A stretch of 25,154 nucleotides of DNA from Ectocarpus siliculosus. Lineage: Eukaryota > Sar > Phaeophyceae > Ectocarpales > Ectocarpaceae. The notes beneath the pieces are model-generated. The model had not been told where the DNA came from. It did not search any database and saw nothing but the letters and a program-made list of their open reading frames with translations. Below, in pieces: positions 2,050 through 24,816 of this stretch (position 1 is the stretch's first letter; each line of letters starts with the position of its first letter). The DNA lies in the NCBI GenBank assembly GCA_000310025.1, contig FN648758.1, forward strand, positions 26,892 to 52,045. Reading direction: 5' to 3'. A program made the translations under genes and the position numbers.

Positions 2050-2809
2050 CAATGAAAAGGGGGTCCGCACCAGAGATTTCCATGTACTACGTCTCTGACG
2101 GCACCCCTAAATCGACCCGCACGACCGCACGACCCCACCTGCCCAGGGACACGAGTTGGCGTTGGTGTAGCCGGGGCTTGTTCGTGGAAATAAGGCATCT
2201 CAGGAACAAAAACGCCGTCTCAGGCAACCCCTCAGGCACAAAACACCGTCTCAGGCAACCCTGTCTCAAGAAGGGGCTCTAAGGCAAAAAGTAAGGCATG
2301 CCTTAGAAGTCAGGGTTTACCCACAGCGCAGCGGAACCTCGTTTTTTTGTGATTCTCGCCGCATTGATCCCGACACGTAACATTTTTCCGAACCTTTTTT
2401 TGAAGTTCTATCGCCCTTCCTCTTTCCTCTCACACCTTCCCCCGTCCTCCTCTCTCTCTCTCTCGCAGGCAGCACGGACATCGGACTCACGGTAACAGGA
2501 AGCAACAGCAGCAGAAGGTAAGCCTATGTAGAGCTATAGGGGGCGAGGCGTGTAGTTTTGTCTCTGTCTACGTGCGGTCATGCGCGTGTTTTTTTGACGC
2601 GTCAGCGGCCGGTGGCGTACCATCGCGCGCATTTCCAAACTTGTCTGGCGACCGCGTGCCCGCGATACATCCCCACGGCACGAGAAACCGCCCGCTTTCG
2701 CCTCCCATGGGCCTCGTGTGACTCTGTGTGCGCTCGTTTTTATTTTCAGGGCGTCGCTGTGATGTTGCGTTGATCGCCCCTCCCACGCACAACAGCAACC
2801 GCCACAAAT
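2050..2809. other. Non-coding flank with short AGGCA-type repeats and a CT microsatellite
   Basis: No gene is supported. A 16-bp word CCGTCTCAGGCAACCC occurs at 2215 and 2246. A 14-bp perfect palindrome TAAGGCATGCCTTA lies at 2292-2305. A CT dinucleotide run lies near 2448-2464. The AGGCA words also appear at 700-770 to the left of the fold-back element, so they may belong to a larger repeat enclosing it. None of the open frames shows the N-terminal motifs expected for the endonuclease that follows. Confidence 0.45.
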
Positions 2810-3175
2810 TTGAATTTTTTGGCGGGTTTGAATTTTTTTAATCTTTATATGAGTGCACTAATGGCCATGAGGTTTCTGTTGGCAGGCCACCGTGGAGCGG
2901 TCAACTTCGTAGCCGCGTATGCTCCAACCAAACCTTCAACCGCCGACAGCAAGCGCGTGTTGTGGGGAAAAATTGACAGTCTCGTGCGGAGGATCCCTTC
3001 CAAAGAATGTGTGTATGTCCTATTGGACGCCAACGCGCGGACGGGAGATAGGTTGGACGGAGGGGACGGAAGGGTAATAGGAATGTACGGGCGTGATGAG
3101 CTCAACGACAATGGCATGCTACTGTTGTATTTCGCAACGGAAAACAGGCTAGCTCTCACGAACACGTTCTTCTAG
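2810..3175 (+). pseudogene. LINE endonuclease domain fragment, ended by in-frame TAG
   Basis: This piece carries the middle of an AP-type (EEP family) endonuclease: VNFVAAYAPT near the start of the similarity and the LLDANARTGD block around 3020-3055, typical of the D-x-N catalytic strand. It stops at TAG 3173-3175. The same frame continues immediately after the stop with [11 protein letters not shown] and then the RLDYIL and SDHNMV blocks of the same domain, so the stop interrupts one domain rather than separating two proteins. The N-terminal third of the domain is absent. Confidence 0.75.
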
Positions 3176-3211
3176 ACACGCAAGGGCGGAATATGGCACA
3201 CATACAACGGT

Positions 3212-5959
3212 GTGTCGGGAAACGATTGCAAGCGCCTTGACTACATCCTGACAAGGCAGGCACATCACGGCCGAGTATCTAACGTGGTTGTCACCCCCCA
3301 GCCGGTTCGCCCAGTCAAAGCAGACTCAGACCACAACATGGTAGTAGCCACCGTCAACCTCGGTGGCAGGCTTGCCCGCAACCGTGCAGTCCGGACTAAA
3401 CCGAAACAGCAGCAATTCAACCGACGGGAATTGCAGTTCGAAGCAGCACGAGGTGCGGTGACTAATCGGTTCCTCCTCAACCTCGACACACGACTGGACG
3501 AACGAACAACCACCGCCGCGGAATTGGCGGCCGACTTTACCAATGCTCTCCTCGAAGCAGCGCGGACGACCCTAGGGGAGGAACCGCGGAGACGCCGCAC
3601 GCAGGGGTGGTGTGAGACCCCAGAGACGAGAGCAGTGCTGGAGGAGGCCCTCACCACACGGCGGGAAGCGCGCCGGGCGATGAGGGGCAACTGGAACTCA
3701 GCAACGTGGAGAACTCTCAAAGCAGCGTGTAAGGGAGTGGCTACAGCAGTCGAAACGGGCATTTATGCCCACCTGGACGGATATGTGACTGAACTCGAAG
3801 CAATCTACAAAGATCGCGACATGAGAGGACTGTACCAACACCTCAAGAGATCAGTGGGCCTCAGCGGGAGACAAGCGGGGGGACAGCAGTTCGTCGCGGA
3901 TGAGAACGGCGTGTTGCTCCGGAACAGGGACGACATCCTCCAACGGTGGGCGAGATTCTTCAGCACCCTACTCAACACCAACCCCCCCACCCTGAACCCA
4001 GACATCATCGAACGAGTGACGCAGCGGCCAGCGACACGTGACAGTCAACGGTTGGGAGAGGTGCCAGACCTCGAGGAGGTGGCACGGGCAGCGAAAGGCC
4101 TCAAGAACTGGAAGGCACCCGGCCATGACTACCTCCCTGCCGAGTTGCTCAAGATCGATGACGACGAACCGGTTGTCCTGAAACACCTCCATACCATCCT
4201 CGTCAAGGTGTGGAACGGAGGAGATATCCCCCAAGAGTGGAAGGACGCAACCATCAATGTGCTGTACAAGAAGGGTGACCGGTCCAACTGTAACAACTAC
4301 AGGGGGATTTCGCTACTATCTCACGTAGGCAAGGTTCCCATCAAGATCATCACCAACCGTCTAAGCGCCTTCTGCGAAGCCAACAACATCCTCCCGGAGG
4401 AACAGTGCGGATTTCGACCCGGGCGATCCACCGTCGACATGCTGTTTGTCGTGCGTCGCCTCCAGCAGCTGGGGCGGAGAAAGAGAATACCGCTCTACAT
4501 GTGCTTCGTCGACTTGAAGAAGGCGTATGATTCGGTGGACCGAGAGATGCTATGGAAGGTGCTGGCCAGGGCCGGGATTCCCGCGAAGCTAATCAAAGTC
4601 ATCCGCCAATTCCACGATGGAATGCGGGCCCGGGTGCGCATGGACGACGGAGAACTATCGGACTGGTTCTTCGTCACACAGGGTGTGCGACAAGGATGTG
4701 TGCTATCCCCACTGCTGTTCAACATCTTCTTCGCCGAGGTCCTCGAGGTCGTCGTTATCCGATTCAGCGAGGATGATGTTGTTCTGCGGATTTTGGTGTG
4801 CTTGGAGGAGGGGAAGACGGAAGCGGGGGGGGGGGAGGAGACACCCCTTGACCGAGTACGGAGGGCAGTATGGGGGATGCTGTATGCCGATGATGCCGGC
4901 GTCGTATCAAGGTCTGCAGAAGGACTGGCGAGAATGATGACCATCATCGTTGAGGTGTTCGGAGAGTTCGGGCTAACGGTGTCGGAGAAGAAGACGGAGA
5001 CGCTCCTGATGCGCGCTAAGGACAAGCCGACTGCAACATCACAGCCCCCCCCGCCTCCTCCACCACTGACTATCGAAGCCGCGGGACAGAAATACGCCCA
5101 GACGACCGAGTTCACCGAGTTCCGGTACCTCGGTGGCCTCGTCAACGAACATGGCGACCTCACCCGGGAGATCAGCTACAGGAGCAGAGGAGCGTGGGCG
5201 TGCCTCAGGCGATATGGCCAGGAGCTCTTCGACAGACCGAAAGCGCCATTCCGACTCAAGATCCGCCTCCTCCAGGCGGAGGCGATGGAGGCACTGCTGT
5301 ACGGCTGCATGACATGGTCACCACTCAGCGGCCACTATCAGACGCTGCGGTCGACACACCACCGACTGCTCCTTCGAGTTATCGGGTACAAGCGCAAGCA
5401 AGACACCTACCGGCAGCTCTCGTACGCCCAGACGCTGAAGAGGGTCGAATGCCAGAGCGTTGAAGCCACGATCCGACAACGACGCCTACTGTTCGCGGGA
5501 GCACTGGCAAGGCAGCCGGACGGGCGACTCCCGAAACGACTGATGCTCGGCGAGCTGGCGGGGGGGGAGAAGCCACGTAGGGGGGGACAGGAACAGAACT
5601 GGCCGAAGTGTGTGCTCGACGACCTGAAGGCATTCGGGGCCGACCACGGATCTACGAAAACCGACCCAAGTTGTCTCGGAATTCCCGTACCGAAAGACAC
5701 GGCACCGAAGTTTAGGTGGACGGAAGCCGCGAAGGTGGAGGGGGGAGTACCCTGGCATGCGGCGGTGCTGCAGGGAGCTGAGAGGTTCATGACCTCCTGG
5801 CACGAGAAGGAAGAAGAGGACAGCCGACAACGAGCGCTCAAACGAAACCACAAGCCAACAACCAATGGGGCGGGAGGGGGGCAGGAGACGGACGAGACGG
5901 CGAGGGAAGAAAGCAAACGAGAAGAGACGGACCGAGTGGCACGACACGTGCCGGAATGA
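3212..5959 (+). CDS. LINE ORF2: endonuclease C-terminus plus reverse transcriptase
   Basis: The 915-residue open frame begins inside the endonuclease domain; residues around 25-50 hold RLDYILT and the catalytic SDHNMV. The reverse transcriptase follows. Recognisable blocks are [16 protein letters not shown] (about 300), [12 protein letters not shown], motif [10 protein letters not shown] with D434, [15 protein letters not shown], and the catalytic YADD at 558-561. After RT come FRYLGGLV and a C-terminal region containing [19 protein letters not shown], as seen at the end of many LINE ORF2 proteins. The product would nick target DNA and copy its RNA there. The RT half has no frameshift, so the copy may be fairly young, but the truncation and upstream TAG make it inactive on its own. 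The ATG at 3212 is only the first in the frame and not a natural start. A poly-proline stretch at about 612-618 sits between RT and the C-terminal region. Confidence 0.9.
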
Positions 5960-9162: not shown

Positions 9163-10762
9163 CTACGCAGCGTTCACAATTTCACTCGGTGAGACCGAGC
9201 CTACTCGACCCTTTCTGCTAGCCCTTCGTTGATGACTCTCCCCATTTCTCTCTCCCCTTGCACCCTCCACCAATACGCCGGCCGCCTCTCCACTGCCAGT
9301 GGCCTCGTCGGTGGGCAGTATCGCTGATGCTCGATGCGCAAACACGGCTCGGGGCTCCCCGACCCTCTCCTCGCTCGGCTTTCGTCTGGGTCGACCTGTC
9401 GTTCCGCCCACTCCTACATCTTTTGGCGGCGATGAGACCGCCGTCAAGTTAGCTTCCGCTTCCCCCTGTGGAGCGTTCCTGCTGTGTCCACGCGAGTGGG
9501 ATGTTCGCTTGTTACCCGACCGTTCCCGCAAGGCGTCGTTGGCGGCGGTGGCGACAGCGGCGGAACCAGCTTGCGCGGTCGTCCCGGGGAGGGGCGGAGG
9601 AAGAGCGCCACGCTCCTTGTTGTGCCTCTCGACGTCTCGATGACCCGCAGCAGTCGTTCTTCCCCTCCCACCTTCACTAGCCTCCCGGCTTTTCGTCTTT
9701 CGCTTCCCCTTTTTCGGCTCGTCGGTAGCGAAAGCATGCCTCGTCTCTCCCGCAAGCGCGGTGACCTCCTCGTTGTCATCCGCGAGTGCAGCGTTCGCGT
9801 GTGTCGCGGGGAGGCCGTGGCCAACGGCTTTGCGAGATCGTCTCCTTGTCGCGGTCATATTAGTTTTGCTGGGACTGTCATCGCCATCGCCCAAGACGCT
9901 GGGTTGATGGCCCTTTCTTTCCTGTTCCGGGCCACCGCCGTCGCGCCGCTCTTCTTCTAGAACCGTCTTTTTGCTAAAATTCACTCCTGGTACCCGGCGA
10001 TCACGAGTGGTCCCCGCCTTGGCTGGCTCATCGACAACGCCACGACCGTCGGCGGTGGTACCTGCCCCTGACGCCACGGCTGCGATGGCCTCCACCGCCT
10101 TCCTCTGCATGGTGCGCAACAGGCGAGTCGGTACGGCGGCCGCGTTCTCGGCTTCCTGCGCTTCGCTCAACAAACGCAAGCGCTCAGCGTCTTCTGCTTC
10201 GCGGACGGCCCGCGCCACCTCGCGGTCCCGTCGTGCCTTGTCTGCGCGCATCCTTCGCCGCTCGCTCTCTCGCTCCGCCTCCTTGCGCCGGACGTCTTCC
10301 TGGTGGGCCTGACGCCGCTCCCTCCGCCGCTCCCTCCTCCGCTCTGCCATCGTGGGCGTCCTACTTCCTCCACCTCTACCCTCTACTGCGGATGGATCGA
10401 CGCCGCTACCGCCGACCACCATCATCATCGACGTTTTCAAGCTCAACGGGGGCTCGAGGCTTCCGTCTTCGTGGTCGCCACGTGGCACGCAAAGGCCGTC
10501 TGCGTTGGCAACGGTCAAACTACCGGTGTTCTCCACTGGTTCGTTTGTGCTGTCGCTATCTCTGCCACTGTCGCTACCGCTTCGTTCGTCCCGGCGAGAG
10601 TGCTGGTGAGTCGACTCTTGGGTCCGATGCCCCTTGCGGAGACCGTGACGCTCCGCCAGAAGCTTGCTTTCCCGAAAGTTCTGCCTGCTGTAGTATCCCA
10701 CAACGATGTCGGCCACCAGGTATCGGTCTTTCTCGCTTACTCGAATGATCCCGTTCAGACCC
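9163..10762 (-). CDS. Exon 11: end of module 4 and long charged coiled-coil/disordered tail
   Basis: The last exon is 1,600 nt. It follows CCCCATAG and completes the split Arg codon, then reads GLNGIIRVSEKDRYLVADIV, which continues the module after its VRY-type strand. Next come S/R/D-rich sequence, a strongly charged helical stretch from MAERRRERRRERRQ (about 10350) to SEAQEAENAA (about 10140) predicted as coiled coil, and then low-complexity sequence rich in R, G, S, T, P and K with several basic clusters (KKGKRKTKSR). The stop is TAG at 9165-9163. Taken alone the frame is open from 10854, but the splice acceptor and module continuity favour a start at 10762. The basic clusters could direct it to the nucleus or to RNA or microtubules; this is speculation. 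Confidence 0.7.
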
Positions 10763-13700
10763 CTATGGGGGTTGGGTGTAGGTGGGAGGTGTTTCGTTAT
10801 TGTGGGTGGTCCACGTAGGAGAGCACAATGAGCGAGGCAATCGATGTATTGCAATTCTGAACGCTGACATCAATAACTAGCGTTCGTTGTAATCGGACCT
10901 AGTGGAGGATCAGACCCATAAAACATCTCCGCTGACTTAGCTTAAATTTAGATCATGCCGCCAAAGCAAGGTTGGGTGGGGTGCAAGCCTGTCGTACGAC
11001 ACGTCGGCGGTTTACCTGGCCACGTAGGTGATGTTGATCTTCTTGCGCACACCTCGGCAGGGGTCGTCGAAAAGCTCCTGGAGGTCGGTGTTACAGTCGA
11101 TCACAAGTTTTTCACCACCCTGGTTGCCGGCAAAGAGGAAGGAATGACGGACGAACGGGCACAGACCAAAATGTCGGCCGAGTTTTGAGGGCGCCACAAT
11201 CATCTTGGAGATACGTATCTTGAACCTTCCATGGATCTCCTATCAACGTTTTTTTCACACTTGACGGATGAGCCAAATACATTTAGCGCGGCTAGCTCAA
11301 ACTGTAGTCGTTGGCACGTGCGAGTAAGCGTGGACTCTTCAGTGAGTCCGGTCGGTTGGTCCTCAGCGTACTAAGGAAGAAGACAGCGCGCCTCACGATC
11401 CCGAAACCAACCCGTGGCTTATCTTCAACCATTCTCCCACGAGATCACCAGCCAGAGGTCGTTAATACGCCATCCTCCACAACTAACTGCCGGCACTTAA
11501 CCTCGACGTACCACAACCTGCCGCAAATATCAAAGATACTATCTAGTTGGCAACGTTTCAGAGTACTGTACGTGCTTAGTGCCAGGCGGCGACAATGTTG
11601 TAGTTGGGCATGGCATCGTGTGGCTGGCTCGCCTGCCTCTCGATCATTTGCCGGAGCTTGCTCGAGATGTCGTAGGTCTTGGTGGGGTTACGAGGGTGGC
11701 CATAGCGAGAAGTGAGCACATCGATCACCGACAAGACCTTCGGACTATCGACGAGAACGTCCTCTTCAAGGATCCCTCTTCCCATGCGATCATCTTTCGC
11801 CTGCGAGTAAAAGGGCGGGAAATATCGAGGCCTACTGAGCAGGACGGTGTTCGACAAGCTGTTCCCGATTAAAACCCCTTGGGGGGTTGGGCAAGTGTTT
11901 CTGTATCAACACAATACTGTCAAATGGTGTATCTGTCCTTGTCAGCATTCATCGTTCCGGCAATGTTCTTCCGCCTAAGAAGCGGCGATCAATCCGCAGC
12001 TCGACAAATGGATCTATCTAGCTCGGGCGCACACATGCTAAACAGCAGCAGGGTAGAAAATCTCGGCGCAGCGAAGCCCCACCGACGACAGCCTTGGCCG
12101 AGGCGCTCTCAACCCTAACCCCATAAACAAACGCCTTCTGGTGCACGCGGCACACACGCGAACCTCAAAGAACGTTGACATCGCTTCCGCACCTGCACGA
12201 CCACCTGACCCTGGCGCTGCAAGATGAAGTTTCGCGGGTAGCCGCTGGATGTGGTCTCCTCAAGGGATGTCAGCCGCTCACTGTCGTGCCCCTGGCAGGA
12301 AAGAAGAATTGAAAAAGACATGCACAGAAGATGCTCTGACACTTTGACGTCGATCTGAAAAACGAAACCCGTACCCGCATGTCGTACTTTTCGATACCCA
12401 TTAAACGAAACATGGGCGTTCAACGCAAGTGTGGTGGTCACCCTAGCGTGGTGTTCTCGTCGTGTGTCGTTAGGCACGAGGCTAGATATCTGATTGAGCT
12501 CATCTTAAATAGTTAACGCATCACCTTCTGAGACTCGGATTAGACCGGTCGAGAGTGCTACGGAGAGATGAGCCTCATTTTTGTGTTTTTTATTTTGCCG
12601 GATGACGCGTCTCCTTTTGGTCGTATCTCGATGGTTTTCGCAAGCAGGTGGAGGTGTTCATGTTGGAGGGATCAGGCGTATGTTTTCTGAGATCCTGGCA
12701 CAAACAAGTAGATGAAATAGCTGTATGTACGCTTTCCAATCGTAAGACGTGCATAAAAAAAACTAAACTCTAGCGCATTGCACGCCAGAGTACGCACGCG
12801 CGCTCTCGCTCACCACGACGAGATACCGCACCCGCAGTTCCTTTCTTTTCCCGGGCATTGGGTTCCCGAAGAGCTGATTGACATCTGTTTGAGCCGCCAC
12901 GAACTCCAGCAGCCCCCCACCGTGCTCCTCCACCCTCGCCTGCAGACGCGCCCTGATATCCACGTACCTGGGAGTCAGCTTCTTCAGGTACCTGAAGGGC
13001 AATGGAAAGCAGCGGCGAAAGGAACGAACAACGCACCGTGTCAGGCATTCGCAATAGGTGATGGGGCGAAACTTGTGGGAATCCAGGGAGTCATAGACAC
13101 GTAAACGCCAAAGCCTTTCCCGCCTTCTCTTTCGTGAAATGAGATTGCGATCAACACCCAGGACTTGTGGCATTTTAGCTCTAATCCATGCTCGAGACAG
13201 ACGCCGTCCGTGGCCTACGTACAGTATTTCCCTCTCCGGATACTCTTTCTCCATCGATACAACTCACTTGAGATCACCGATGAGAGGTCTGAGCCCCATG
13301 AGCCTCTTGTTGTCCTCACGGCTGAGGGGCATCCCGATGTCTTTGCGGTTCTGGATGGCGAACAGGTCGGAAAGTTCTCTCTGCACCAGCTGCAGACGCT
13401 CATCGATGCCCTCTCGTGTCTGCCCGTAGGTTGCGGATTCCACGAGGATCAGCGGCGCCAACATAGGCCTGCGAAAGCGATAGAGGAGTGTACCAGCAAA
13501 TACAAGCAAAATGCTTTCGTTCAAAAGGTGTGTCGAGCATTGTGCGGGCAGGGGGTTGGGTGTGGGTGTGATTGACCAAATTGCCGAGCTTTTTTCGTGA
13601 CTCTGCTTAACTGCTGTACCGGTGTGGGGGGCAGCCATAAATCTTTGTCGGGAGTGGTTTTCATGAACAGCTATCGCTGTCTCCCTTGCGTTGCCTAGAA

Positions 13701-15644
13701 ACCAACCAAGCTACCCCGAGCACGTTGACAAGCAGGCCATTACTTTCTTTGCCCGCGGGGCTTTTTCTTGTTTGCTCATCGGTGATGCGTATTGATGCTC
13801 CATATTTCTCACGTGCAGCTGATGCTGATTGGTGTCAACAGCCGTCCGTCCGACTCGATCGCCTCCGCCCTTCCTTCCGTACCGACGATCTCGTACCGGA
13901 TTACCAAGCATTTATCCCGGCCAGGGCAAGGGTCGCCGAAGAGATCCGTGAGCGGTTCCTTTCGAGACATGAAGAGGTACTTTCCGTCCGCGAGGTCGAC
14001 CCTCCCCTGCATGAACTCTGTCACGTCCATCTGCGTGTGAGAGATACACGGACAAAGTATTATTGATGAGCGTTATGAGTCCTGTTTGAGTCTTGCATGC
14101 AACAACAGCAAGACGTCCAGATGTCATGGACGCTGACGCTGCACAGCTTCTGTACCACACACAAGACAACGTCAACCAATGACTTGAAGCCCGTTCTGGG
14201 CATGAGCAAGATGCGACAGCAATCTCCACGTCCAGGTTCACAATCAACGTTTGCTCGTTTTTCTCTACGTCCAGGTTCACAATCAACGTTTGCTCGTTTA
14301 TTCTGGTGGGTGTCTCACCTTGCCACGCCCCCGCGAAGGTTCGCCGGGAGAACCATACACCGCAGAGAACACCACCACGAGGGGCAGCTTCGTCGGCACT
14401 TGAAGAGATACCGCCTCCGCAAGGTGGCCCTCCTATTGTTGAATGGGTTGCATCCATAGTGGTGGTGCTTATGAGGTGGGGATATTTGGTGTCTGAACAC
14501 GGGGTGTCCGGAGAAATGGCCACGTATGAACTCGTGTTATGAGCCACAGGCCACTGTAGCGAAGCGACACGTCCGCGGATGCGACACATCAGTACCACAG
14601 GGGCATGTTGATAGGTTGGGCTAACTATTAGTCGAAGCTTGAGGCATCGTACCTCTGACTCTTGGAGCCACACTTCTCGTCGCCGCCCTTTCGCGACGCC
14701 TTCCAGAGAGACGTACCGAACGCGCAGAACCTTCAGAACGCCCGGGCAGGGATTTCCTAGCCAGTCTGTTAGGCTCTCCTCTCGTCTTATGTCCAAGCGA
14801 TCCGATACCCCCTATCGCTTGTGCCGAATATGCAATGCGTCATGCGGTAAGGTTTGTAGTGCACAATTCGATGTGTCAAAGCTTCATGTGGTCAGAGTCC
14901 TTGAGACTCGTCTGTCTATATCATAGAAGAAACAAGGTTTTTTGGCAGGGTGATCTTACAACATTGTTGGAATTGGCAAGAAAACCCGGGGTATCGACTA
15001 TTGTCTTGCGTGGATGATGCACCGACCCGCAACGCTTGTTCGCAGGAACTCCAAGCAGCGTGCCTACTCTGCAGTGTATACCCATGTCAAGATTGATTGC
15101 GTGTACAGGTGCGATTTGTGGTTAGAAACTCACCACGCGTGTTTGCAGCTGTCGGCGGACGTCGATGGCCAACTTTGGGTCTCGCGGGTGGCCGTACGAC
15201 GCTGCAACAACTCGGAAAGGCCCTAGACCGAGAGGGGTGTCCCAGTACAACGTGGCTGGGTCCTGGAGCACGGTGCAGCAGCGCATGCACCACCGATACG
15301 TATCCACCACTGCTTCGTTCCCCTGAGTATTGCAAGCGAGATTGGCGAGAAGCAAGAGTTATACCTGGCCGACAGTCCCGTCACATCAAGACACCCAAGG
15401 GCGAAGTACGGCGCGATGCATACGTACATGTGTGTGAGTGGATTATTTCCCTCAGGAGAAGACTACTGTACCTGCGCCCTCGCACGCCTACCTGCCAGTA
15501 CCCGCAATTGGGGCACCGTATCCTTGGGCCGGGGTACATCTTAGGTAGCACATAATTGTCCCCTTCTTCTTCCTCGCTGCTTCCCTCCCCCTCCCATATC
15601 GCTTGCCACTCTTCTGCTGTCAGTGTACGGCCATCGTCTCGCAT
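9163..15644 (-). CDS. Multi-exon protein with four tandem DNAJC11-C-like modules and a coiled-coil tail
   Basis: The model has 11 exons: 15644-15492, 15322-15134, 14811-14653, 14432-14319, 14030-13813, 13468-13268, 12991-12814, 12291-12154, 11800-11633, 11119-11016 and 10762-9163 (3,222 nt, 1,073 residues). Splice sites are GT-AG except one GC donor at 11632. Reading phase matches at every junction, including three phase-2 introns. Joined exons give a CxxC...CxxC zinc-ribbon-like start, then four copies of YG-x(n)-DV-x(n)-GDPCPG-x-x-K-x-L-x-VRY, then a tail rich in R, E, K and S. The module resembles the DNAJC11 C-terminal domain (DUF3395 family), normally single and attached to a J domain; no J domain is seen. 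Function is unknown; tandem beta modules suggest scaffolding or binding. The ATG at 15644 is the first Met, but the frame is open upstream to about 15722, so a 5' exon may exist. The donor at 12153 is the weakest site. Confidence 0.65.
11016..11800 (-). CDS. Exons 9-10: module 4, joined through a GC-AG intron
   Basis: Exon 9 (11800-11633, 56 codons) follows TACTCGCAG and contains VIDVLTSRYGHPRNPTKTYD, then KLRQMIERQ. No GT donor fits: the in-frame stop TAA at 11578-11576 comes first, and the only phase-0 junction that restores the module is CAG|GCGAGC, a GC donor. Exon 10 (11119-11016) follows GCAACCAG with GGEKLVIDCN and LQELFDDPCRGVRKKINITY, ending GCCAG|GTAAAC in phase 2. The intron is 513 nt. 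Arg replaces the second Pro of the usual DPCPG turn (DPCRG). Confidence 0.6.
12154..12291 (-). CDS. Exon 8: linker between modules 3 and 4
   Basis: It begins after CTGCCAG in phase 0 with GHDSERLTSLEETTSSGYP and contains a beta-like stretch QGQVVVQVRKRC. The acceptor and its phase agree with the preceding exon. The donor is uncertain: TGT|GTGCCG (ending 12154) keeps phase 0 with the next exon, while GAG|GTTCGC ten bases earlier would not. An additional small exon between 12153 and 11801 cannot be excluded. Confidence 0.5.
12814..13468 (-). CDS. Exons 6-7: module 3, with a longer insert
   Basis: Exon 6 (13468-13268) follows TTTCGCAG in phase 2 and reads PLILVESATYGQTREGIDER, then a longer helical stretch with SDLFAIQNRKDIGMP. 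It ends AA|GTGAGT. Exon 7 (12991-12814) follows CCCTTCAG, completing the split lysine codon, and reads YVDIRARLQARV, then VNQLFGNPMPGKRKELRVRY, ending at GTG|GTGAGC. Compared with modules 1, 2 and 4 the distance between YG and the DV segment is about 45 residues longer. Met replaces Cys in the GNPMPG turn. Confidence 0.65.
13813..14432 (-). CDS. Exons 4-5: module 2
   Basis: Exon 4 (14432-14319, 38 codons) contains PLVVVFSAVYGSPGEP and ends at AAG|GTGAGA. This frame is easily missed because another frame is open over the same bases; it is chosen for its phase match on both sides and the YG motif. Exon 5 (14030-13813) starts after CACACGCAG with MDVTEFMQGRV, then LTDLFGDPCPGRDKCLVIRY. It is the most canonical module copy. 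Exon 5 ends in phase 2 at CAC|GTGAGA. The 288-nt intron between them contains a 39-bp tandem duplication. Confidence 0.7.
14226..14306. repeat. 39-bp tandem duplication in an intron
   Basis: TCCAGGTTCACAATCAACG recurs at 14231 and 14270 with nearly identical flanks, giving two units of 39 bp with a few differences. By the gene model it lies within the intron between exons 4 and 5. The length is a multiple of three and the minus strand stays open, but the splice phase places it outside the coding sequence. Confidence 0.75.
14653..14811 (-). CDS. Exon 3: second half of module 1
   Basis: 53 codons in phase 0 on both sides. It reads LTDWLGNPCPGVLKVLRVRY, the GDPCPG..K.L.VRY half that pairs with YGHPRDP of the preceding exon. 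It then continues with a charged stretch RRREVWLQESE that leads into the next module. Acceptor CGATAG|GGGG, donor GAG|GTACGA. Confidence 0.7.
15134..15644 (-). CDS. Exons 1-2: zinc-ribbon-like N-terminus and first YG half-module
   Basis: Exon 1 (15644-15492, 51 codons) has an acidic stretch GSSEEEEGD and ends in RCPNCGYWQ with a CAG|GTAGGC donor. Exon 2 (15322-15134, 63 codons) starts after ATACTCAG with GNEAVVDTYRWCMRCC. Splicing joins CPNC to CMRC 19 residues apart, the spacing and aromatic context of a zinc ribbon, which neither exon shows alone. Exon 2 ends with VVAASYGHPRDPKLAIDV, the first half of module 1, and a GTG|GTGAGT donor. The intron is 169 nt. Zinc binding is inferred from cysteine spacing only. 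Confidence 0.65.
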
Positions 15645-19200: not shown

Positions 19201-19553
19201 CTATAAAATCGTATCCCCTGCAGAAAGATTCACGTTGGTGAAACCCTACGACCAGCGCCCCTCTCTCAGTCTTGGGGAGCTCCGTCTCCAGCCTTCATAG
19301 CTGACAGAAGAGAAGACGGAGAGGATATTTATCGCCCCCGACAAATGCTAAATATTGTGCGTACGCAAACCACCTTCTTGGCCGCGCCAAATCCCTAAAC
19401 AACAAGGCGGAGGAGCTAATAGAGGAGCTGGGCATTGGGCTGAGCAGCAAGAAGCTGAAGAAGGCCATGGGCCAGCTAGACCCAGCAGGGGAAGGGGTGG
19501 TTTCGAAACAAGACTTCATCGAGTGGTATGCCGAGAACGGCCAAGGAGGGTGA
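16058..19553 (+). CDS. Predicted four-pass membrane protein with C-terminal EF-hand pair
   Basis: The model has exons 16058-16234 (or ending 16204), 17263-17495, 18018-18213 (or ending 18222), 18922-19041 and 19407-19553. Phases agree at all junctions, including the phase-2 join of exons 2 and 3. Four hydrophobic stretches fall in the first three exons; two EF-hand-like motifs fall in the last two. The expected product is about 270 residues with both termini on the same side of the membrane and the C-terminal EF-hands probably cytosolic. It would act as a membrane protein responding to calcium. I do not recognise the family. The start ATG is not certain: a plus-strand exon just upstream could be spliced to 16112 instead. 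Large introns (1.0 kb between exons 1 and 2) could hide further exons. Confidence 0.55.
16235..17262. other. Long intron region of the membrane/EF-hand gene
   Basis: No exon is firmly supported. Two places deserve note: GAGTCACCGAAACGAAAG ending in CCAG|GTGAGA at about 16463, and an open stretch around 16930-17040 reading PERYAFREKPHIYIDWELS, which looks protein-like but has no clear matching splice pair. AATAAA occurs at about 16836. Confidence 0.35.
17263..18213 (+). CDS. Exons 2-3 of the membrane/EF-hand gene: TM segments 2-4
   Basis: Exon 2 (17263-17495) follows a fine pyrimidine tract and CATCTACAG. It has an acidic start GELEDDRCGYRID, TM2 (NSYLLLMVFAWSFLGF), a basic loop RGRKRRFLRP and TM3 (SFVALLYLLLFSMSM), then the donor CAT|GTGAGC. 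Exon 3 (18018-18213) follows CCGCATCAG and completes an Ile codon. It reads WIFGTWAIVKD, a loop with NSCANE, TM4 (LLYSFCVALVAVYWVGVVFG) and a basic end FGKK. The intron is 522 nt. The WxxGxW...C...LLY pattern recalls multi-pass proteins such as membrane RING-finger proteins, but no RING is present. Confidence 0.65.
18922..19553 (+). CDS. Exons 4-5 of the membrane/EF-hand gene: EF-hand pair
   Basis: Exon 4 (18922-19041) encodes a helix rich in E, Q and K followed by a loop DEEGNGTIDRQQ, and ends CAG|GTTAGT. Exon 5 (19407-19553) follows AACAACAAG and starts AEELIEELG, which is exactly the exiting helix expected after that loop. It continues KKLKKAMGQL and the second loop DPAGEGVVSKQD, then FIEWYAENGQGG and TGA at 19551. 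Both loops keep D1 and G6, but position 12 is Gln in the first and Asp in the second rather than Glu, and position 3 of the second is Ala. Calcium affinity may therefore be reduced. Confidence 0.75.
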
Positions 19554-23063: not shown

Positions 23064-24816
23064 CTGCTCCCGGTGGAGGCGTTCCGTCGTGGTATTTCCG
23101 GGGGCGACGTCAAAGGTTTTTTTCCGAGGATGATGTCGCGGGTTTCCGAGGGCGATATCGCGGGTTCCCGAGGGCGATATCGCGGGTTCCCGAGGGGAAT
23201 GTCGCGGGAGAAACGGGGGCGGAATCGGGACAACAGGCGCGAATCGAAGCGCGGTGTCGTGAGAACAGAAAAAGATAGCATCAGTCGCGGAAACCGAAAA
23301 GACCCGCAAAAACAGAAGAAACATACACATATGCACAACGCGGACGAAACCCCGTTGTGCATATGTGTATAGAAAGCTTCCTGCAACACCAAGGCCCCGT
23401 GCAATGAAAGCAAGGGTCGTGCTGAGAGTTGTAACCGCGTGGAGAAGAGAAACACGCACCTTGCTCTTGAACTCCCTCACGAGGCGTTTTATCGCCGCCT
23501 GCACCAAGCTGCCCTGAAGGCGGTCCATCCCATCATCGTCCGCCTGAGGACAACGGCCCAATACAAAAAAACACCGAAGAAATGAGGGGGAAAAAAACCC
23601 ATCGAAATCGTAATCATAGTAGAAAGAGAAAGAAAAGGTTCCGGGGAAGCTAAGATAATTAGTACATGCAATGTTAAGCAGCAACAACAACAGCAATACA
23701 CCAACCAAGCGAGTCGCTCTTCACCTTCAACACAGGAAAAGGAACAACAGTTAACAGCGTAACACCAGTTGACTCATGAAGAGCCAAAAAAGTCTGGAGA
23801 GGATACCGCCAGATGTTCTCTACCACGCGGAGAGCGCAGTTTTTTTTTTTTTCAGCAAAACAGAAACAAAACAGACTTTTGTCGTGCAGGACAAAACTAG
23901 TGATGACCTCAGAGTGCAAATGGCCTACCTGTGCCAAAACTACAATTTGTCGAGAAACAGACGGCGTTGTCTCCCCTTTATGGGTAACAGGATCAACAAG
24001 ATGGTGCTCCGTGTTTGCTCAGGACAATGTACGGTGCCCACAACTACATACCGTTTTCTGTTTCTAAACGGGAACGGGTCGGCAAATTTGATTGTTCCGA
24101 CTTTCGAAACGTGCACCTCCTTCCCCTTCCCTCCTCTCCTTGCCACAAACGCGCCCTCTGCTTCTGTAAGGATTGCGCTCATACGGCTAACTCCGCATGA
24201 CGGCGTTAGCCAAGGAAGAGTCGGTAACGCCATCTAGGGTTGCTCGCCGAAAATCTTCTGGACTCACGCCCAGAATGATTGCAAAGCTGCCAGTCAGTGC
24301 TTACCAAAAACATAGAACTGTTTCTATGGGCACTTCACCAGCGACGGCAGTAAGTGAGACCAGGCAACAATAGAAACAAAAACAACCAAACGAAATCACA
24401 CAAAAAAAAAAGCCACCTCAAAGGCGGTGGCGGCATCTCTCGCTGCCTGCGCCACGTCGTCCATCGCGCCGACCTCGATGATGATAAATGGGACAAAACT
24501 GAAAAAAAACACACACAAACACACACACACACACACACACACAAAAAGTCACCTCAAAGGCGGTGGCGACATCTCTCGCTGCCTGCGCCACGTCGTCCAT
24601 CGCGCCGACCTCGATGATGATAAATGAGATAAAACTGAAAAAAAAAAAAAACACAAGAAAAAGAAAACTCACCTCCAAAACGGTTGCAGCATCTCTCGCC
24701 GCCTGCGCCACGTCGTCCATCGCGCCGGCCTCTCTTATCCCCGCCTGAGCGAGGTACTCCTTCATCGTTGTGCTCGACCCTGGCATGGCCTCGTTCGTGA
24801 AGAACTGGATCAAGAG
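22930..24816 (-). CDS. Partial multi-exon gene with tandemly repeated 19-codon exon
   Basis: A phase-consistent chain is 24816-24673, 24609-24553, 24473-24417, 23928-23725, 23543-23460 and 23063-22930. The gene probably starts outside the window to the right and continues left, since the last exon ends in phase 2 at GAG|GTACAC. The sequence is helical and rich in E, Q, R and A, with three copies of GAMDDVAQAARD. I do not recognise the family. The first, fifth and sixth exons have good splice sites; the 23928-23725 exon carries an odd FCFCFAEKKKN stretch and may be wrong. Another open exon-like piece at 24163-24052 (good GTATGT donor) does not fit the phase. Confidence 0.45.
23124..23211. repeat. 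22-bp minisatellite, four copies
   Basis: Copies start at 23124, 23146, 23168 and 23190 with CCGAGG and end in CGCGGGTT-type sequence. The middle two contain the palindrome GCGATATCGC. The array lies within the predicted 396-nt intron of the minus-strand gene. Confidence 0.85.
23323..23370. repeat. Perfect 18-bp inverted repeat with 12-nt loop
   Basis: ATACACATATGCACAACG at 23323-23340 is exactly complementary to 23353-23370. The 12-nt loop is CGGACGAAACCC. It lies in the same predicted intron as the minisatellite. Confidence 0.9.
23460..23543 (-). CDS. 28-codon exon of the partial gene
   Basis: It follows GTTGTCCTCAG and reads DDDGMDRLQGSLVQAAIKRL, ending AAG|GTGCGT, phase 0 on both sides. 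Strongly helical, acidic at the start and basic at the end. Confidence 0.6.
24052..24163 (-). CDS. Exon-like segment not fitting the chain
   Basis: It follows CCTTACAG and ends AAACG|GTATGT, both good sites. The frame reads GKGKEVHVSKVGTIKFADPF, which looks like beta structure. It starts in phase 1 and ends in phase 2, so it does not join copy C or 23928-23725 without shifting frame; it could be an alternative exon or chance. Confidence 0.3.
24417..24473 (-). CDS. Repeat exon copy C (19 codons)
   Basis: 57 nt, nearly identical to copy B, encoding VGAMDDVAQAARDAATAFE. The copy and part of its upstream intron (ATGATGATAAATG) are shared with copy B at 136-bp spacing. The donor is GAG|GTGGCT, weaker than in copies A and B. 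Confidence 0.5.
24509..24542. repeat. CA microsatellite in the intron between repeat exons B and C
   Basis: A (CA)n run of about 30 bp sits within the 79-nt intron. It accounts for most of the length difference from the 63-nt intron between copies A and B. Confidence 0.85.
24553..24609 (-). CDS. Repeat exon copy B (19 codons)
   Basis: 57 nt, symmetric phase 0, encoding VGAMDDVAQAARDVATAFE. It lies between introns of 63 and 79 nt. Donor GAG|GTGACT; acceptor ATCATCGAG. A much stronger acceptor (T-run plus CAG) lies 25 nt upstream, but using it shifts the frame to a stop at the exon's end. Confidence 0.5.
24673..24816 (-). CDS. First seen exon, containing copy A of the repeat
   Basis: 48 codons: QFFTNEAMPGSSTTMKEYLA and then AGIREAGAMDDVAQAARDAA, ending GAG|GTGAGT. 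The acceptor CCACAG is taken at 24817-24819. The frame is open further right to an ATG at 24951, but that part is Pro/Arg-rich and looks intronic. Confidence 0.55.

Follow-up and report, generated by a model that had tools for sequence, protein, structure and literature searches.

The window, by which we mean the whole stretch of Ectocarpus siliculosus DNA that was analysed (25,154 nucleotides), carries on its minus strand a predicted gene with four tandem modules of the type that ends DNAJC11 (PF11875), and the module is related by sequence to the rhamnose-binding (SUEL) lectins, with which it aligns over its full length only after circular permutation. The four-module array is real by computation and was correctly described in the initial annotation. 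The identification of the domain as DNAJC11-C also holds by Pfam; what the annotation missed was the relation to rhamnose-binding lectins. We lean, with modest confidence, toward one joint reading, namely that the modules are permuted-lectin-like, would bind sugars in bacteria and would form an intracellular four-module scaffold in this eukaryote.

Gene model and four-fold repetition

An eleven-exon model on the minus strand (15644-9163) gives a predicted protein of 1060 amino acids whose joined frame is open throughout. Exons were placed by eye, using frames, splice signals and the module motif:

Exon 1, 15492-15644, minus strand: putative start methionine and CPNC, the first CxxC of a zinc-ribbon-like motif; open frame, donor TGGCAG/gtaggc
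Exon 2, 15134-15322, minus strand: CMRC, the second CxxC, then the first half of module 1 (YG strand, DV); AG/GT sites, frame in the top 10 of 625
Exon 3, 14653-14811, minus strand: second half of module 1 (GNPCPGVLKVLRVRY)
Exon 4, 14319-14432, minus strand: first half of module 2 (VYG)
Exon 5, 13813-14030, minus strand: second half of module 2 (DVT ... GDPCPGRDKCLVIRY ... ESDG)
Exon 6, 13268-13468, minus strand: first half of module 3 (TYG), with the greater part of its insert
Exon 7, 12814-12991, minus strand: second half of module 3 (VDI ... GNPMPGKRKELRVRY)
Exon 8, 12193-12291, minus strand: tail of module 3 and linker; AG/GT sites, phase 0
Exon 9, 11633-11800, minus strand: first half of module 4 (RYG ... 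DI), GC donor at its end; junction picked to complete the module
Exon 10, 11016-11119, minus strand: second half of module 4 (DDPCRGVRKKINITY)
Exon 11, 9163-10762, minus strand: end of module 4 (SEKD), then an extended Arg/Glu-rich C-terminal region of low complexity up to the stop codon; open frame 10869-9163, junction phase 2

Nine of the ten introns have GT-AG ends and one (11632-11120, donor CAG/GCGAGC) has GC-AG ends, with phases consistent at all junctions. The GC-AG junction is the least sure, as it was chosen among several candidates because module 4 is thereby complete. GC content by codon position in exons 1-10 is 0.638, 0.424 and 0.715, vs. 0.504 in the nine introns between them. 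By eye, the introns within modules 1 and 4 fall at a near-identical profile position (about columns 29-31, phase 0) and those within modules 2 and 3 cut upstream of D[VI]. The intron between exons 4 and 5 also contains two near-identical copies of about 33 bases with a spacing of 39 bases (14228-14299, by eye).

The predicted protein, of about 1060 amino acids, would comprise a zinc-ribbon-like CxxC...CxxC start, four tandem PF11875-type modules and an Arg/Glu-rich tail that is probably disordered or coiled-coil. The start, a CxxC-15-CxxC pattern spanning exons 1 and 2, is without a Pfam match, and the tail has none at 0.01. No signal sequence was seen by eye in exon 1 and no enzyme domain was found with Pfam in the window gene.

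After splicing, the module region (568 amino acids, minus strand) has four stretches that match PF11875, with 56.3 bits (3.7e-15) against a cut-off of 27.1 bits, which bears out both the four-fold repetition proposed initially and the resemblance to DNAJC11-C. Taken singly, the modules score 22.0, 20.3, 17.9, and 12.1 bits, each below the same cut-off, and among ten unspliced frames only two gave matches (0.0047 and 0.12). A profile of 66 bacterial modules was built for independence from Pfam and from our own splicing. It scores 92.9 bits on the spliced protein in five alignments, module 3 being matched in two pieces, and the best value in controls (1000 shuffles and one reversal) was 6.1 bits. 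In an unspliced six-frame scan with this profile (frames of at least 25 amino acids, n = 625), the predicted half-modules were the first five frames and eight of the ten best, all eight on the minus strand. Two exons build the core of each module, as had been suggested.

Some details of the initial description need adjustment. Module 4 extends into the exon starting at 10762, outside the span of 11016-15322 proposed for the array. The GDPCPG string described for all four copies is literal in module 2 only, the others reading GNPCPG (module 1), GNPMPG (module 3) and DDPCRG (module 4). Module 3 has, in addition, an insert of about 50 amino acids and a third exon. By eye, the window modules contain from none to three cysteines each. 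In a tree, the four modules sit on one branch with support of 100/95, found in 200 of 200 bootstrap trees, with long branches and few columns; this topology agrees with a putative duplication inside the lineage.

PF11875, or DnaJ-like_C11_C (DUF3395), is the C-terminal domain of DNAJC11, and DNAJC11 proteins have an N-terminal J domain with an HPD tripeptide. Like DNAJC11, the window gene has a module region above the PF11875 cut-off and a YG...DV...DP..G..K.L.V.Y core, but it differs in its four copies, its zinc-ribbon-like start, the insert in module 3 and the J domain, of which none was seen. As the annotation had remarked, no J domain is visible within the window: its six frames contain six HPD tripeptides, none of which has J-like surroundings by eye, and no J-domain match was obtained among the selected frames searched with Pfam. 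In the passages cited here from a 2014 paper, DNAJC11 had no assigned function, its C-terminal domain, residues 410-549 of the mouse protein, was a domain of unknown function, and DUF3395 was proposed to mediate protein-protein association (PLoS One 2014, PMC4128653).

Elsewhere in the window, a plus-strand open frame of 927 amino acids (3176-5959) with a reverse transcriptase domain (RVT_1, 1e-33) resembles an element of the LINE type. For the frame immediately preceding it, 2774-3172, Pfam has no match at 0.01. A weak EF-hand pair on the plus strand at 19305-19553 (7.8e-4, below the cut-off) is perhaps an exon of a neighboring gene. At 24358-24748, a segment resembling SLAACATSSIAP appears three times in the frames, by eye a tandem repeat with simple-sequence spacers.

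Bacterial relatives of the module

A DNA pattern for GDP[A/C/G/S/W]PG..K.L.V.Y was run over a collection of bacterial and archaeal genomes and over viral contigs, and 86 stretches were obtained from the bacterial and archaeal genomes. In each of the 86 loci the motif lies in an open frame (84 to 1612 amino acids); a looser motif detects multiple copies in nine of these frames, and the taxa among the 80 of 86 loci listed are mostly Planctomycetes, Verrucomicrobia, Acidobacteria, Bacteroidetes, and Proteobacteria. Three queries, among them the DNA pattern and a 277-aa spliced sequence, brought up no relative in viral contigs, phages yielded one chance match (E 7), and no relative was found on plasmids. 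Pfam's own PF11875 model is rare in sampled genomes (1/149 and 2/149), and the bacterial-module profile was found in 10 of 149 sampled genomes of one phylum.

The Pfam scan took 75 of the 86 bacterial module proteins, leaving out 10 near-duplicates and L079. PF11875 was matched in 33 of the 75, SUEL_Lectin in 11, HEAT_2 (PF13646) in 25, GH106 in nine, a GH78-type N-terminal rhamnosidase domain in seven and alpha-L-fucosidase in two, and there was no J domain among the matches listed (25 of 34 families). By blastp, GH106 sequence is present in 11 of the 86 proteins (one as a 135-aa alignment only) and GH78 in eight (one over 171 amino acids only). The module is fused to alpha-L-rhamnosidases of two families. 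By comparison, GH106 was found in only 16 of 149 genomes sampled from one phylum, a rough yardstick given the different taxon mix. On these rhamnosidases the module is as in the window gene, but there are only one or two copies and they are attached to an enzyme. HEAT-repeat proteins make up about a third of the bacterial module proteins (28/86 by blastp, in addition to the Pfam count above), so sugar enzymes are not the module's sole company. The HEAT-repeat carriers (L014, L007, L017, and others; mostly planctomycetes) have one module, C-terminal in most of those listed. At the limits applied, neither Pfam nor NCBIfam named the L014 module, and NCBIfam has no model for the module in the seven proteins tried.

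Among the closest known arrangements are head-to-tail arrays in Acidobacteria. PF11875 matches six stretches in L041 (2.1e-51), four in L022 (3.2e-39) and four in L002 (3.0e-34). None of the Pfam matches in these three is a J domain, and a further array, L013, was identified by motif count. Unlike the window gene, the bacterial frames are uninterrupted, the modules of L041 and L022 look more alike, and in these two, inhibitor I36 and DUF3011 segments lie C-terminal of the modules. An inhibitor I36 segment also follows the array in L071, as it does in L041, and in L071 a weak beta/gamma-crystallin match falls there.

These relatives change how the arrangement should be viewed. It had been thought undescribed, but J-less tandem arrays exist in Acidobacteria and the eukaryotic array is a variant of these. 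The bacterial copies found here occur in arrays or beside glycosidases and HEAT repeats, and give no general support to the view of one copy placed behind a J domain. The DNAJC11 label is right by Pfam, and the family, judged by sequence, is wider than DNAJC11. The bacterial rows nearest to the window modules in the tree are L011 and L045, which lie in frames with GH106 sequence (in L045 as the 135-aa alignment only); the position of the window modules is unsure because of long branches.

Sequence relation to rhamnose-binding lectins

PF02140 is the rhamnose-binding or SUEL lectin domain of proteins such as CSL3 and latrophilin, with eight cysteines in four disulphides; it binds L-rhamnose or D-galactose and occurs as tandem repeats in egg lectins (PMC2430599 for the repeats). 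Exon 5 alone, used as a PDB query, had ten matches with E up to 10, every one a rhamnose-binding lectin or a latrophilin (best 1.7e-4), and the bacterial profile hit this family in 12 of 13 matches (E up to 1; best 4.9e-16). With the 277-aa N-terminal part, the best match was an L-rhamnose-binding lectin (0.0048); this lectin family accounted for four of 21 PDB matches (E up to 10), the rest being mostly antibody chains. PF02140 scores 27.2 bits (E 5.1e-6) on the spliced window protein, below its cut-off of 31.4. L041 and L022 are above the cut-offs of both families, with PF02140 values of 1.7e-11 and 4e-8 beside the PF11875 values given above, and their best PF02140 stretches are under 30 residues long, around the motif.

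The lectin motifs named in the cited part of one study are YGR, DPC, and KYL (PMC10817417). All four window modules have YG and the K, two have a literal DPC (NPC and NPM elsewhere), and none has the R of YGR or a KYL. The window modules resemble SUEL lectins in part, in YG and DPC.G..K type motifs and in the Glu, Tyr, Gly, and Lys pocket positions, and the predicted fold of a bacterial relative has its helix and strands in an order that agrees with theirs after permutation. They differ in lacking the lectin disulphide cysteines and in scoring under the PF02140 cut-off, and their strand order would be permuted. A cysteine-bearing version of the module (CGDPAPG...C) occurs in the Proteobacteria L021, L026, L051, L055, L057, and L073; these are perhaps intermediates between the PF11875 and lectin families.

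The bacterial rows had been chosen by a motif common to lectins, and the rest of the module was therefore tested separately. The SUEL domains were taken from loci that PF02140 had picked out in 15 of 140 genomes, and the SUEL profile was made from 22 of 29 domain matches (>70 amino acids), some representing one gene in overlapping loci; the search seed, L067, came from the motif search. The tail downstream of the motif matches the beginning of the lectin domain and not its end, with a score of 18.7 where 200 shuffles reached no more than 8.5. Upstream of the motif, the module aligns with SUEL at A.YG with a score of 14.6, the best of 100 shuffles being 11.8; this alignment spans just 13 columns and has a low hhalign probability, 6.6 percent. 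Unpermuted, the bacterial-module and SUEL profiles align at 45.7 over 34 columns; with 18 tail columns moved to the front, a single cut chosen by eye, the score rises to 62.1 over 75 columns, a value reached by none of 100 tail-shuffled controls (maximum 50.8).

The positions that contact sugar in latrophilin appear to be largely kept in the modules. The rhamnose contacts of latrophilin-1, in the cited part of its description, are Glu42 in the b1-b2 turn, Tyr63, Gly117, and Lys120 (PMC2430599). The 104 bacterial motif copies were reduced to 78 by dropping short and similar ones, and to 66 rows by 12 exclusions by hand (L008, one L009, L012, L025, L032, both L038, L049, L060, L066, L067, L068), these rows being cysteine-rich or SUEL-like and a few poorly matching. 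At the Glu42 position, 65 of the 66 rows have an acid (E in 50, D in 15) and one has Q; Y fills the Tyr position in 58, and Gly and Lys are each present in all 66; Gly and Lys belong to the selection motif, the acid and Tyr do not. All four window modules have the pocket Y, G, and K, and, by eye, an acid can be assigned to the corresponding turn of modules 1, 2, and 4 but seems to be missing in module 3. The loop Asp is replaced by Asn in modules 1 and 3.

In the open-access literature we found no paper joining the rhamnose-binding lectin with DNAJC11 or with circular permutation, and none joining the SUEL lectin with bacteria and rhamnosidase; for SUEL and brown alga, no title on the subject was among the matches listed, although these include a marine glycomics editorial and the Acanthamoeba genome paper, which may mention SUEL lectins.

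Predicted fold, rival readings and meaning

AlphaFold2 modeled one L022 module with a pLDDT of 88.7 and a pTM of 0.74, in the order b3, short extra strand, helix, b4, one turn, b5, b1, b2, with a Lys just before b5 and an acid just after b1. Exon 5 alone, without the first strand of its module, folds poorly (pLDDT 66). The order given for the latrophilin-1 lectin domain in the cited part of its description is b1, b2, b3, helix, b4, 3-10 turn, b5 (PMC2430599), and the predicted L022 order agrees with that of a permuted latrophilin domain. A Foldseek search of the PDB with the L022 model found neither a match at E 0.001 or better nor a lectin among the matches listed (50 of 533). This result counts against the permuted-lectin reading, although the permutation itself may be the cause, since it would weaken a sequential comparison.

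On our preferred reading each module would be, judged by sequence, a relative of the rhamnose-binding lectins that has undergone circular permutation, the lectin order b1-b2-b3-helix-b4-b5 having become b3-helix-b4-b5-b1-b2, and its pocket would be largely kept as the Glu of the b1-b2 turn, the Tyr of YG and the Gly and Lys of the DP.PG..K loop. The bacterial module most likely binds deoxyhexose-containing glycans, on rhamnosidases among others, a ligand that we infer from the fusions to rhamnosidases and fucosidase. The eukaryotic protein is presumably intracellular, and its four non-identical pockets most likely act jointly as a multivalent scaffold; a modular binding or scaffold protein, as first suggested, remains the likeliest role. 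The probable ligands of the window modules are protein partners, with glycans less probable, by analogy with receptor-borne lectin domains, for which non-carbohydrate ligands are argued in the cited part of the latrophilin-1 study (PMC2430599).

Other readings draw on parts of the same evidence. The exons could belong to a pseudogene or to several genes, given one GC-AG intron, a putative start codon and predicted exon joins, but ten phase-compatible junctions, no internal stop over 1060 codons, the codon-position composition and half-modules lying in order on one strand make this very improbable. It is also unlikely that the lectin resemblance is a convergent short motif (DPxxGxxKxLxVxY) with no common origin or fold. 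The bacterial rows were picked by that very motif, Foldseek gave no lectin among the matches listed and the half before the motif aligned over 13 columns only; nonetheless, parts outside the motif align above shuffled controls, and L041 and L022 exceed both the PF02140 and PF11875 cut-offs, the former with stretches of less than 30 residues around the motif.

The remaining two readings concern function. A relative of DNAJC11-type co-chaperones, with its J domain outside the window or lost and its modules serving as oligomerization domains as proposed for DNAJC11, would fit the PF11875 score above the cut-off and the protein-protein association suggested for DUF3395 in the cited part of that work (PMC4128653), but has only a small chance of being right, considering that neither the HPD scan nor the selected frames showed a J domain in the window and that the gene model has four modules, not one, and a zinc-ribbon-like N terminus. 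By analogy with what is proposed for the bacterial relatives, the modules might instead be active lectins, intracellular or secreted, for deoxyhexose glycans. The largely kept pocket residues, the bacterial fusion to rhamnosidases and the nearest tree rows, L011 and L045, in frames with GH106 sequence (135 amino acids only in L045) speak for such activity, which we nevertheless hold to be rather unlikely, as no signal sequence was seen by eye in exon 1, module 3 seems to lack the pocket acid, the tree position is unsure on its long branches and receptor-borne lectin domains are argued, in the cited part of their description, to have non-carbohydrate ligands (PMC2430599).

Returning to the permuted-lectin reading, the PF11875 family probably has a permuted rhamnose-binding-lectin fold. 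We see an even chance that a broader account is right, in which the entire family, including mitochondrial DNAJC11, would share a permuted cysteine-free lectin fold that arose or spread in bacteria as a deoxyhexose binder and would appear here as a four-module intracellular array with a zinc-ribbon-like start. The array points to eukaryotic use of the module with no J domain attached. Of the two claims, the permuted-lectin link is of greater interest. Circular permutation could explain why the lectin relation is easily missed by fold comparison, and the link, with its mapped pocket, would make the acid/Tyr/Lys pocket of the DNAJC11 domain directly testable for ligands.
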